From: an uncultured Cetobacterium sp.
GTDB taxonomy: Bacteria > Fusobacteriota > Fusobacteriia > Fusobacteriales > Fusobacteriaceae
Assembly (NCBI GenBank): GCA_949293295.1
Contig: CASFCG010000024.1
Location: 1 to 64,000 of the forward strand
Reading direction: 5' to 3'
Length of the DNA stretch: 64,000 bases
In this document: piece by piece, positions 46,785 through 55,033 of the stretch
Numbering within the stretch: the first letter of the stretch is position 1
How the letters are laid out: the number at the start of each line of letters is the position of its first letter
Notes under the pieces: generated by a model
The model's input: only the letters and a program-made list of their open reading frames with translations
Databases searched by the model: none
What the model was told of the DNA's origin: nothing
Position numbers and translations under genes: made by a program

Positions 46785-46861
46785 TGGCGGGAGTGACGAG
46801 TCTCGAACTCGCGACCTCATGCGTGACAGGCATGCGCTCTAACCAACTGAGCTACACCCCC
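46785..46861 (-). tRNA. tRNA-Asp (anticodon GTC)
   Basis: 77 nt including an encoded CCA end. The acceptor GGGGGTG pairs with CACTCCC (one G-T), the D arm has AGCTCAGTTGGTTAGAGC, the anticodon arm GCCTGTCACGC has GTC, and the T arm has GTTCGAGTC. Confidence 0.96.
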
Positions 46862-46870
46862 AAAAAATTA

Positions 46871-46946
46871 TGGTGGAAACAACTGGACTTGAACCAGTGA
46901 CCCCCTGCTTGTAAGGCAGGTGCTCTCCCAACTGAGCTATGCTTCC
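46871..46946 (-). tRNA. tRNA-Val (anticodon TAC)
   Basis: 76 nt including encoded CCA. The acceptor GGAAGCA pairs with TGTTTCC, the D arm is GCTCAGTTGGGAGAGC, the anticodon loop CTTACAA holds TAC, and the T arm is CTGGTTCAAGTCCAG. It is the upstream tRNA of a two-gene unit with tRNA-Asp. Confidence 0.96.
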
Positions 46947-47319: not shown

Positions 47320-47347
47320 GATATTAAAAATGTAGGGAGGGAGATTT

Positions 47348-48421
47348 ATGGAAGAGATTAGTATAAGTGAGATTAAGAACAGATGTGAGAGATATATCAG
47401 TAATCAAAAAATCATTGTTTCTGGTTTTTGTGATTATGGCAATTTAGGACGTAAAAGTAAAAACATCAGATATTATCAATATGTACAACTTATCTCTTTT
47501 GACGGAGATGAAAAGATAAGTGTCTTAGATGATGATAAGTCGCTTTTAGATGGTGTTTTTTATAAATTAGAAGTTGCGGTTTATTTTAAAAAACATTCAA
47601 ATGAAATAGCTTTAAAGAAAATAAAAATTCTTGAGGAGGATAAAAATAATTTAATTTATAATCATGAACACTTTTCTGTATTGAAAAATAGATTGAAAAA
47701 GGGAACAATAAATATTAATGAGTACTTAAGTCTATTATTTGAAAATAATAAAATAATAAAGATAGGGATGGTAACACCAAAAGAATCTGTTGCAATAAAT
47801 GATATTATGAATTCCTTATCCAACAGTAATAATAACTTGAAGATTGAGATATTAAAAGAACATATTATCACTATTGAAAATTTTTTGTCTTCTACTCGAT
47901 TTGATGAAGCTAAAATTGATTTTTGGTTGATAACAAGAGGAGGAGGGGATTTATCTTTATTCAATTCTTACAATATGATAAAAAAAATATCTGAGTTAAA
48001 AAAACCTGTAGTAACAGCTTTAGGTCATTCTACAGATTATACATTAACTGATTTTATGGCTGATAGAGTCTTTTCAACACCGACTTCTATTGCAGAATAC
48101 TTGAATAGTTTTTTTAGAAAAGAAGAGAGTAGGAATGAAGAAATGAAAAAATTAGAACAAAAACTTTTCGAACAAAGTAAAAAAATGAGAACATTAATGA
48201 TACAGATGAATGACCAAGAGAAAGAGTTAGAAAAATATAAAACAGAGGAGAATCATTTAAATAAAATAATAAGAATATTAAACACAGAATCCTCAATTAA
48301 GAATAATTCTATATCTCCAAGTATAAAAAAATTTATATATATTGTCATTGTCTTGAATATTGTCAGTATTATTATCAACATTGTAAACGTTTTTTCTAAA
48401 ATAGGGTTAATTAACAAATAA
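47348..48421 (+). CDS. Membrane-anchored protein with exonuclease VII large-subunit (XseA)-like core
   Basis: 357 aa, ATG after GGGAGGGAG. Residues 1-95 resemble an OB-fold (VSGFCDYGNLGRKSKNIRYY); 135-250 carry the XseA catalytic core: MVTPKESVAINDIM, TRGGGDLSLFN (197-200 GGG), GHSTDYTLTDFMADRVF (His227, Asp230) and TPTSIAEYL. A coiled coil follows (255-310), then a single membrane helix (328-348) instead of the long XseA C-terminal helices and XseB-binding tail. Canonical XseA is soluble and ~400-450 aa. Its AT-richness and position beside tRNA genes suggest acquisition by transfer. A nuclease role in defence or DNA uptake is possible, but unproven. Confidence 0.72.
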   Translation: MEEISISEIKNRCERYISNQKIIVSGFCDYGNLGRKSKNIRYYQYVQLISFDGDEKISVLDDDKSLLDGVFYKLEVAVYFKKHSNEIALKKIKILEEDKNNLIYNHEHFSVLKNRLKKGTININEYLSLLFENNKIIKIGMVTPKESVAINDIMNSLSNSNNNLKIEILKEHIITIENFLSSTRFDEAKIDFWLITRGGGDLSLFNSYNMIKKISELKKPVVTALGHSTDYTLTDFMADRVFSTPTSIAEYLNSFFRKEESRNEEMKKLEQKLFEQSKKMRTLMIQMNDQEKELEKYKTEENHLNKIIRILNTESSIKNNSISPSIKKFIYIVIVLNIVSIIINIVNVFSKIGLINK

Positions 48422-48534: not shown

Positions 48535-49872
48535 TTATATGGATTTTTTTAATTTTTTCAATCTATTTTGAGCAAGTATAAACAGTATTATTCCAGAAAG
48601 GGTATCCGATATAGGAAAAGCATACCAAACGCCAGTTTCTTTAAATAAATAACCCAATAAATACAAAAGAGGAATATTAAGAACTAAAATTCTAATAATA
48701 AAGAAATAAGTTGCAATTTTATTCTCTTTTATGGATTGAAAAAGATTGTTAGAAGCCAGAAATACAGCTGTAAATGGCATTAAAAAAAGATTTTGCTTCA
48801 TAGCATGAGAAGTAAATTTTATGAGTTCAAAATCATTTTTTACAAAGCAGGATACTATCTCATCTGTAAAAAGAAACATTCCTAACACAGACAATGTAGA
48901 TAGTGAAAAAACAATTGAAAGTTGAAGATTAAAACTGTCATAAACTCTTTTAAAGTTTTTAGCTCCAAAGTTATATGAGATGATGGCAGCTGTTCCAAGA
49001 TTAAATCCTTGTAGACTGTTGTTCATAACAGCTCTGCAGATTGAAATAATTCCGATAGCGGCTGTCGCAATATCTCCTCCATATATACCTGCCTGTCTAT
49101 TTGTAATAGTGATTACAGAGGCTTGAAGTAGTTGATTGAAAAATCTAGGACTTCCAATTTTCATAATCTCTTTTAAAATATCAACTTTAAAAGTAAGAGA
49201 TTCTCTTGAAAAAGATAGAATCTCAGATTTAAGAAAATAGATGATAATAAGAAATGCAGAGAAAGCTGTTGCAATCAATGTAGCTAATCCAGCTCCAGCA
49301 ATACCATAGTTCCACTTCATAATGAATAGATAATCCAAAATAACGTTTAAAATAGCTGTTAAAATATTAATAAATGTTGAAAAAAAGAGATTTCCCATTC
49401 CTCTGATAGTGGAACTTTGACCCAAAATTAGTTGAAATAATCCCATTGGAATTAGGAATTTAGTGTATTCTAAAGCAGGAGCAAAATTTGATGAAGTAGC
49501 ACCAAAGAGTTTTAGAAGTGGAATATTAAAGAGATATAGGAAACCAGTCAAAAAAAGTCCAATTAAGAACAACCAAAAGAAGCCGGTTGTTAAAAATATT
49601 CCAGCCTCATTTTTTCTATTCTCTCCGAGTTTAATACCAACAAGGATTGAAATACCAGAAAAAAGAAATGTAAAACTATTTATAAGCATAGTGTAAGGGA
49701 AAACAATTGCAATAGCAGACATTCCATCTCTTCCAGCAACTTGCCCGATAAAAAGTCGGTCAGTTAGAACGCAAATCATACCGATAATTGAAGCAAGAGA
49801 TGAAGGAAGACTAAATTTTAAAATTGTTGTTAAAACGCTTCCTTTTTCAAATTTAAAACTTAGTGTTTCCAT
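48535..49872 (-). CDS. MATE family multidrug/cation antiporter
   Basis: 445 aa with twelve predicted membrane segments. FSLPSSLASIIGMICVLTDR in TM1 and FIGQVAGRDGMSAIAIVFPY are typical of the DinF/NorM-like MATE families. The two halves are repeats (IMKIGSPRFFNQLLQASVIT opens the second). The substrate is unknown. GGGAGGG lies before the ATG. It follows the hemolysin III gene on the same strand after 15 nt. Confidence 0.92.
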   Translation of the reverse strand: METLSFKFEKGSVLTTILKFSLPSSLASIIGMICVLTDRLFIGQVAGRDGMSAIAIVFPYTMLINSFTFLFSGISILVGIKLGENRKNEAGIFLTTGFFWLFLIGLFLTGFLYLFNIPLLKLFGATSSNFAPALEYTKFLIPMGLFQLILGQSSTIRGMGNLFFSTFINILTAILNVILDYLFIMKWNYGIAGAGLATLIATAFSAFLIIIYFLKSEILSFSRESLTFKVDILKEIMKIGSPRFFNQLLQASVITITNRQAGIYGGDIATAAIGIISICRAVMNNSLQGFNLGTAAIISYNFGAKNFKRVYDSFNLQLSIVFSLSTLSVLGMFLFTDEIVSCFVKNDFELIKFTSHAMKQNLFLMPFTAVFLASNNLFQSIKENKIATYFFIIRILVLNIPLLYLLGYLFKETGVWYAFPISDTLSGIILFILAQNRLKKLKKSI

Positions 49873-53242: not shown

Positions 53243-55033
53243 ATGAGATATAAATCAGAAGATATTGATTTATTGTTAAGTGAATTATCAATAGAGAAAG
53301 TTGTGGGGGAGTTTATTACTTTAAAAAGAGCAGGAGCTAACTATAAGGGGCTTTGTCCTTTTCATCAGGATAATTCTCCCTCTTTTGTTGTGAGCCCAAG
53401 TAAAAATATTTGTAAATGTTTTGTCTGTGGAGCTGGTGGAAATCCAATAACTTTCTATTCAGAGTATAAAAAGATTAGTTTCGGTGAAGCTGTAGAAGAA
53501 TTGGCATCTAAGTATGGTATTTCAATAGGAAAGGTTTTGTCTCACCGAAAAAATGAGGAAAATAATGTTTTTTATGAGATAATGGAGGAGGCTCATAAAT
53601 TTTATAAGGAAGAGATATTTAAATATGGTGCTTTTGAAGCTTTAGAATATCTTTCAAAAAGAAAGATAGACTCCAAACTTATCACTGATAATCAGATTGG
53701 TTATGCGCCAAACGATTGGTCGTCCTTATATGATTATCTGATTTTAAAGGGTTTTTCTAAAGAAAATATATTGAAATTAGGGCTTGCTAAAGAAAGTGAA
53801 AATGGTGTATACGATAGTTTTAGAAATAGAGTTATTTTTCCAATATATTCGATTTCAAATAAAGTTATAGGATTTGGAGGAAGAACATTAGAGGATAGAA
53901 AAGATATTCCGAAATATATAAATTCATCAGAAAATCCTATTTTTACAAAAGGAAAGAATCTATACGGATTCACTGATAGAGGAGCGAATATTAGAAAAAA
54001 GAATTATTCCATTCTTATGGAAGGATATATGGATGTTTTATCTGCTCATTCTTACGGGTTTGATGTGGCTTTGGCTCCGTTAGGAACGGCGTTAACAGAG
54101 GCACAAGCTACTCTTTTAAAAAATTATACAAACAACGTTATAATTGCTTTTGATATGGATGAAGCAGGGCAGAGAGCGACTGAACGTGCTATTATGATGT
54201 TAAAAAAGGCAGGTTTTAATATTAGAGTTCTGCAATTTAAAGATGCAAAAGACCCAGATGAATATTTAAAAAAATATGGAAAAGAAGCATTTCTAAAGGT
54301 TGTTAAGGAATCTTTAGAAGCATTTGAATTTCTTTATAACAGATATTCAGCAGAATATGAGTTAGATAACTATATGTCAAAACAAAATTTTATAAATAGA
54401 TTTAAAGAGTTTTTTCATTGTGTTGAGGCGGAATTAGAAAAAACGTTGTATATCGAGAAGCTTTCAAAAACTTTAGAGATTGATGTAACGATTTTGAGTG
54501 ATATTCTTATAAAAAATAATAAGAAAATTTATCATAATTATGAGTCTAATAAAGTAAAGAGCAATGAGAATGAGTCCAGAAATTTTGAAGTTGAAAGAGC
54601 AACTTTAGCGTTGGTACTGACCGAACCAGATTATTATGTTTTTTTTAGAGAGAAAAATTTTAAAACAAAACTTATAAGAAAGGTTTTCTATTTTATGAGT
54701 CAATTTGAAAATATAAGTTCCTTAGCTAGAGATGAATTTTTAAAGTTGATTTTGGGACAAAAGATATTGGAGGAGGATGAAGAGAAGCAGTTGATTGGTA
54801 TCTATTCAGCTTCTATAACTGATTTTATAAATAAGTTGATATTACAAAAGGAGTTACAAAATATCTTTGAATCTTGGTTTAGATTGGAATTAAAGGAAGA
54901 GATGAAGCATCGAAAGAGTTTTATGCAACACATAGAGTTAAAAAAAATAGAAGACCAACTAAAATATATTGAGAACTTTGAAGATTTAGATAGATTATAT
55001 AAAAATTTTGTAAAGATGTCTTTGATGAATTAA
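53243..55033 (+). CDS. dnaG: DNA primase
   Basis: 596 aa. The CHC2 zinc site is CPFHQDNSPSFVVSP with CKCFVCGAGG (~38-65). The catalytic TOPRIM core shows ILMEGYMDVLSAHSYG, APLGTALTEAQA and IIAFDMDEAGQRATERA. The C-terminal helicase-binding part (from ~450) is present. It makes RNA primers. It heads the dnaG-rpoD pair, a conserved neighbourhood. Confidence 0.97.
   Translation: MRYKSEDIDLLLSELSIEKVVGEFITLKRAGANYKGLCPFHQDNSPSFVVSPSKNICKCFVCGAGGNPITFYSEYKKISFGEAVEELASKYGISIGKVLSHRKNEENNVFYEIMEEAHKFYKEEIFKYGAFEALEYLSKRKIDSKLITDNQIGYAPNDWSSLYDYLILKGFSKENILKLGLAKESENGVYDSFRNRVIFPIYSISNKVIGFGGRTLEDRKDIPKYINSSENPIFTKGKNLYGFTDRGANIRKKNYSILMEGYMDVLSAHSYGFDVALAPLGTALTEAQATLLKNYTNNVIIAFDMDEAGQRATERAIMMLKKAGFNIRVLQFKDAKDPDEYLKKYGKEAFLKVVKESLEAFEFLYNRYSAEYELDNYMSKQNFINRFKEFFHCVEAELEKTLYIEKLSKTLEIDVTILSDILIKNNKKIYHNYESNKVKSNENESRNFEVERATLALVLTEPDYYVFFREKNFKTKLIRKVFYFMSQFENISSLARDEFLKLILGQKILEEDEEKQLIGIYSASITDFINKLILQKELQNIFESWFRLELKEEMKHRKSFMQHIELKKIEDQLKYIENFEDLDRLYKNFVKMSLMN

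Follow-up and report, generated by a model that had tools for sequence, protein, structure and literature searches.

A stand-alone XseA-like protein with a predicted C-terminal membrane anchor in an uncultured Cetobacterium, and its relatives across bacterial phyla

Canonical exonuclease VII (ExoVII) is a soluble housekeeping enzyme of two subunits, XseA and XseB. What, then, is the role of an XseA-like gene that has no xseB beside it and that ends in a hydrophobic segment? Such a gene lies in the window, i.e. the whole 64,000-nucleotide stretch of an uncultured Cetobacterium sp. that was analysed here, and its features are collected in Table 1. The original prediction, made from the letters of the window, was that an XseA catalytic core had been joined to a membrane helix in place of the part that holds XseB, and that the product might be a mobile, defensive nuclease acting at the membrane.

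Table 1. Coordinates of the XseA-like gene, its protein features, its flanks and the three relatives that carry an additional tail domain
Feature	Position	Strand	Basis
CDS, stand-alone membrane-anchored XseA-like protein (putative), 357 aa	47348..48421	+	intact frame, ATG start
Shine-Dalgarno-like AGGGAGGGAG, 4 nt ahead of ATG	47334..47343	+	direct sequence reading
N-terminal region, residues 1-105, OB-fold-like	47348..47662	+	low-confidence predicted strands; inside profile-profile match to canonical XseA
XseA catalytic core, residues 135-255	47750..48112	+	PF02601, AlphaFold2, Foldseek, profile-profile match
D152 codon (E. coli XseA D155)	47801..47803	+	alignment to 8txr
R197-GGG codons (E. 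coli R205-GGG)	47936..47947	+	alignment
H227-S-T-D230 codons (E. coli H238 and D241)	48026..48037	+	alignment to 8txr
Single long helix, residues 245-311, coiled-coil-like, where XseB-binding helices would be	48080..48280	+	AlphaFold2
C-terminal hydrophobic (membrane) segment, residues 330-348; net charge +3 ahead, 9-residue tail behind	48335..48391	+	hydropathy
tRNA-Asp and tRNA-Val genes, flanking, divergent from CDS	46785..46946	-	
MATE-family transporter gene, flanking, convergent with CDS	48535..49872	-	
XseA-like core, membrane segment and peptidoglycan-binding-like tail, G069 chromosomal copies	L235:7871-9202, L236:7547-9286		
XseA-like core, membrane segment and peptidoglycan-binding-like tail, Fusobacterium varium plasmid copy	L199:7854-9392		

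The catalytic core was read correctly. The TRGGG, GHSTD and TPTS motifs are all present, and Exonuc_VII_L (PF02601), the sole Pfam domain above cut-off, matches residues 138-309 (E=1.3e-24). The NCBIfam xseA equivalog TIGR00237, however, scores 93.7 bits, about half of its cut-off of 180, so that the score of a full-length canonical XseA is not reached, and the best identity to any canonical row is 28 %. All four catalytic positions are retained, since D152, R197, H227 and D230 correspond to D155, R205, H238 and D241 of the Escherichia coli XseA in structure 8txr, which itself carries H238A; D155A serves as a catalytic mutant of the E. coli protein (PMC11077951). In an AlphaFold2 model built from a 42-row alignment, pLDDT is about 75-97 over residues 111-310, the N-terminal strands and the tail being of low confidence, and residues 245-311 form one unbroken helix. 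The best Foldseek matches are three 8txr chains, i.e. E. coli ExoVII (E=5.5e-12 to 1.7e-10), with whole-chain TM-scores that are low (0.32-0.41), as is expected of a model with low-confidence ends. By hhalign, the profile of the family described below and that of canonical XseA align through the OB-like region and the core (E=2e-26), with the match ending at residue 252, where the long helix has just begun. Canonical XseA (PF02601, TIGR00237; 8txr) therefore resembles the window protein in its OB-like N-terminus and catalytic core but differs in having an XseB partner, most of the XseB-binding helical part, the C-terminal 'RGY' segment and an equivalog score above cut-off, and in having no membrane segment. 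From this core, the window protein may act as an ssDNA nuclease without XseB.

The proposed exchange of the XseB-holding part for a membrane helix also stood up when 70 canonical XseA proteins, drawn from the genome collection, served as controls. Segment 330-348 has a mean Kyte-Doolittle value of 2.54, and when the protein was shuffled 5000 times, a 19-residue window of at least 2.5 arose only 50 times; no canonical tail (0/70) reached 1.6, the maximum being 1.49. The RG[YF] that defines the RGY segment is found in 68 of the 70 controls and is missing here, as are the long XseB-binding helices. The call of a membrane segment is a hydropathy argument set against these controls, so we infer both membrane insertion and topology; the positive charge ahead of the segment in most family members suggests that the core would be cytoplasmic.

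At the locus itself, the gene is stand-alone and adjacent to tRNA genes as had been noted, with no xseB next to it, and its AT-richness is clear from a GC content of 25.0 % against 31.1 % for the window, the second lowest among 41 ORFs of at least 200 aa. Its start codon is preceded by a strong Shine-Dalgarno-like site, AGGGAGGGAG. With divergent tRNA genes on one side and a convergent MATE gene on the other, the layout indicates a monocistronic gene; however, the promoter that had been ascribed to it was not borne out, as the scan gave 17 promoter-like matches, a chance level (14.2 +/- 4.0 in shuffles), and a terminator scan gave no match above chance. The MATE gene ends an aroC-dCMP deaminase-hlyIII-MATE operon whose order is kept in congeners, where the sequence downstream of MATE varies and the S10 operon lies ~46-49 kb away. 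Since the XseA-like gene is absent from all 11 congeners and what follows MATE differs among them, it is specific to this lineage and sits at a junction that has been rearranged. In this genome, gene order has changed near topA and the S10 operon. Mobility at this site fared less well: insertion at a tRNA was considered and rejected, because neither tRNA has its 3' end towards the gene and no integrase lies nearby, and a tRNA neighbourhood alone means little. PADLOC gave no match for the XseA-like gene, MATE or hlyIII, and no defence gene was found among the scanned neighbours; a single match nearby, at 53243-55033 (reverse-transcriptase/DnaG-like models), is best read as DnaG primase.

Searches for homologues by tblastn of plasmid and phage collections, together with motif pattern searches, yielded 13 further stand-alone XseA-like proteins across six phyla, 11 of them with a clear C-terminal membrane segment, one borderline (Meiothermus, 1.34) and one, possibly truncated, with none (Bacteroides ovatus). 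With the window protein, the tree rows of this set are those of Paenibacillus, Thermus, Sulfuricystis, Azospira, Rhodococcus, Meiothermus (Allomeiothermus), G332 (a genome from the phylum of Ruminiclostridium), Prevotella, B. ovatus, a gut contig, Fusobacterium varium and two copies in Fusobacterium genome G069. In a tree of core columns, with the tail left out, all 14 fall on one side of a branch (support 97/91) from 27 canonical or XseB-linked proteins; the tree is unrooted, and the program warns of long branches and of uneven composition. GH is followed by S, T, A, P or Q in family members and by E in every canonical tree row, but the motif patterns required S, T or A there, which biases the survey towards this trait; L168, a canonical-type protein beyond the tree rows, has A. 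No family member departs from the D155, GGG-loop and H238 equivalents, whereas D241 becomes N or E in some relatives and R205 becomes K in the Fusobacterium group. By these comparisons, the proteins constitute a distinct family with an OB-like domain, core, helix and predicted anchor and no XseB, and the window protein belongs to it by its XseA core, coiled-coil-like helix, C-terminal membrane segment, lack of an adjacent xseB and separate core phylogeny. Their distribution suggests that the family has been scattered horizontally across at least six bacterial phyla and is so far undescribed.

Within the Fusobacteriota, the motif pattern search found any form of the variant in only three of 98 genomes, namely the window genome (G000), G069 (two copies) and G071 (one), and it is therefore not a core gene there. 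The same kind of search, run on 398 genomes from a single Bacillota phylum, gave two matches, one a true variant. Scans of viral contigs with six queries returned a sole copy, identical to the G332 gene, and so do not evidence a phage gene family; scans of genome contigs returned either nothing or, in all ORFs that the motif check found, canonical GHE-type XseA only. The first plasmid matches (Sedimentibacter, Spiroplasma and Synechococcus) and the gut 'phage' contigs inspected first were rejected as relatives, being canonical XseA. On the Meiothermus plasmid pMESIL02 (L078:4166-7216), the XseA-like gene overlaps an upstream 148-aa ORF and a downstream DUF4900 gene in an operon-like layout.

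The suggestion that the protein is a defensive nuclease gains from the relatives what it lacks at the window locus. Neighbours matching phage-defence models occur in five of the 13, an association rather than an enrichment, as there was no matched control and the search was plasmid-enriched. The PADLOC neighbour scans covered the Paenibacillus, G332, Prevotella, B. ovatus, gut-contig, Azospira, Meiothermus and Rhodococcus loci. Beside the Paenibacillus member lie PD-Lambda-3_B (E=2e-82) and a HEPN protein; beside that of G332, bSEFIR (E=1e-103), type III restriction-modification, a CoiA-like protein and a serine recombinase; and, from the PDC models, which are candidate defence models, PDC-S57 and PDC-S01 beside that of Prevotella. 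PDC-S26, a PD-(D/E)XK protein, directly adjoins the B. ovatus and gut-contig members, on the upstream side of one and the downstream side of the other. Azospira neighbours gave weak HTH matches only, and no defence match was found among the scanned neighbours of the Meiothermus and Rhodococcus members.

We put forward, as the best explanation and with a confidence that stops just short of even, that the family is a nuclease against invaders held at the membrane by its anchor. Through the anchor, an ssDNA-type exonuclease would sit on the cytoplasmic side of the inner membrane, meet DNA entering via phage, conjugation or uptake machinery, and be kept off the chromosome; the long helix may stand in for XseB as an oligomerisation or spacer element. 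This proposal draws support from the architecture shared by 14 proteins from six phyla and absent from the tails of all 70 controls, from the four retained catalytic positions and a homology to canonical XseA that breaks off at the XseB-binding helices, from the defence genes that adjoin relatives, from the toxicity reported for E. coli XseA on overexpression (PMC11077951) and from the precedent of SNIPE. The latter is a membrane-anchored DNA nuclease (GIY-YIG and DUF4041) that cuts incoming phage DNA and whose anchor prevents self-damage (PMC13190303). Both proteins join a single-pass anchor, in the window protein predicted from the hydropathy of 330-348, to a DNA nuclease that is cytoplasmic (again as predicted here); however, the nuclease domains are unrelated, the SNIPE anchor is N-terminal rather than C-terminal, neither GIY-YIG nor DUF4041 was found in the window protein, which has no PADLOC match, and anti-phage action is shown only for SNIPE (PMC13190303). 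The original statement that no described system has such an architecture thus holds for XseA, as no membrane-anchored XseA or XseA-based defence effector is described in the literature searched (preprints and most subscription papers lying outside it), but SNIPE is comparable. Zorya and Kiwa, which are membrane-localised anti-phage systems, likewise couple DNA targeting to the membrane, although they are multi-protein systems with other folds (PMC12904381). Against the anti-invader role stand the varying catalytic positions in some relatives, the lack of defence neighbours at the window locus and Fusobacterium loci with no recognised defence genes. E. coli XseA is also reported to need XseB for DNA binding (PMC11077951), so that a stand-alone form might be inactive; this report and that of toxicity point in opposite directions for a nuclease. 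If the anti-invader role is true, a branch of XseA that dropped its partner subunit and moved to the membrane would show a repair nuclease becoming spatially restricted, and would supply a second nuclease fold, after the GIY-YIG of SNIPE, for degrading DNA during entry. The family also makes it testable whether an XseA core works without XseB.

A role for a mobile element rather than for defence, in which the protein would trim or protect ssDNA where its own element is transferred or enters (conjugative strand processing, entry exclusion or establishment), is unlikely. Nine of the 13 relatives are plasmid-borne, which is partly ascertainment, a plasmid collection having been searched, and the F. 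varium copy lies between trbJ/trbL/traF and a replication gene. ExoVII-type enzymes act on ssDNA, the form in which DNA is moved in conjugation. However, most plasmid copies have no adjoining transfer genes, and there are chromosomal copies without them.

The F. varium copy and the two in G069, which adjoin FadA-like and large autotransporter genes, form a subgroup with KGGG and GH[SA]DD cores and conjugation or FadA/autotransporter genes as neighbours. Beyond the membrane segment, their tails give PG_binding_1 matches (E=1e-4 to 7e-4) that fall just short of the Pfam cut-off, and this domain, strongly conserved among the three, is absent from the window protein. The arrangement fits a cytoplasmic core with an external wall-binding tail that would also tether the protein to the wall, and Zorya offers a parallel, in that ZorB binds peptidoglycan (PMC12904381) as this tail may. 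Extending the anti-invader proposal, the family may represent, though this is rather doubtful, an undescribed class of single-gene, membrane-anchored ssDNA nucleases that hit invading DNA at entry and that, wall-tethered in some bacteria by the peptidoglycan-binding tail, could respond to a breach of the envelope. The conserved tail would equally suit a membrane-tethered sensor or signalling protein whose XseA core binds DNA or nucleotides and does not cut, as would the variable D241 and R205 positions and the reported XseB requirement. That alternative is quite unlikely, given that the window protein keeps every catalytic position, that the D155, GGG and H238 equivalents never vary and that no conserved signalling partner gene was seen.

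It is improbable that the gene substitutes for housekeeping ExoVII in the DNA repair of a reduced genome, although the host assembly gives some grounds for it. That assembly has 1.18 Mb in 26 contigs and is 82.8 % complete (the 11 congeners have 1.7-3.1 Mb), and within it the window protein is the only PF02601 match, with neither canonical XseA nor XseB found; a canonical-type XseA match is present in 60/60 related genomes, and XseB in 59/61 genomes. In congeners, xseA sits in uvrB-xseA-x-dprA-topA and xseB between rsmD and ispA (gene names read from translations). Here, topA has different neighbours, the xseA operon being broken up there, and another gene fills the place of xseB beside ispA in contiguous sequence; a direct search for xseB at the congener-type site found none, though unassembled sequence could hide it. 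However, uvrB and prfA, the companions of xseA and xseB in congeners, are likewise unmatched, prfA in a DNA search, which suggests unassembled sequence. As prfA is essential, part of the genome must be missing or too diverged for such a search. The family is also unrelated in location and phylogeny to the xseA of Fusobacteriota. Low GC, rarity and strong divergence might suggest a decaying xseA copy with an accidental hydrophobic tail, but this is very improbable given an intact frame, a strong ribosome-binding site, a full catalytic set and the same architecture in relatives on one branch.

XseA cores also occur on mobile DNA as plasmid XseA/XseB pairs (Chryseobacterium, Pseudomonas luteola and Halocatena), which differ from the family in keeping xseB and in falling on the canonical side of the tree. 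Immediately ahead of the diverged Chryseobacterium pair (L081:4326-5946) are a type I restriction gene, HsdR, and a pore-forming S-4TM effector, and the pair may represent a second ExoVII branch linked to defence, with which plasmid proteins of P. luteola and Microvirga group. On the Halocatena salina plasmid (L085:4515-6227), xseB follows a canonical-type XseA whose coiled coil is very long and whose C-terminus has a strong membrane segment; haloarchaea seem to have gained a membrane anchor independently. Additionally, a diverged XseA-like 'exonuclease' occurs in many Gordonia phages (matches H49, H60 and H176-H194).
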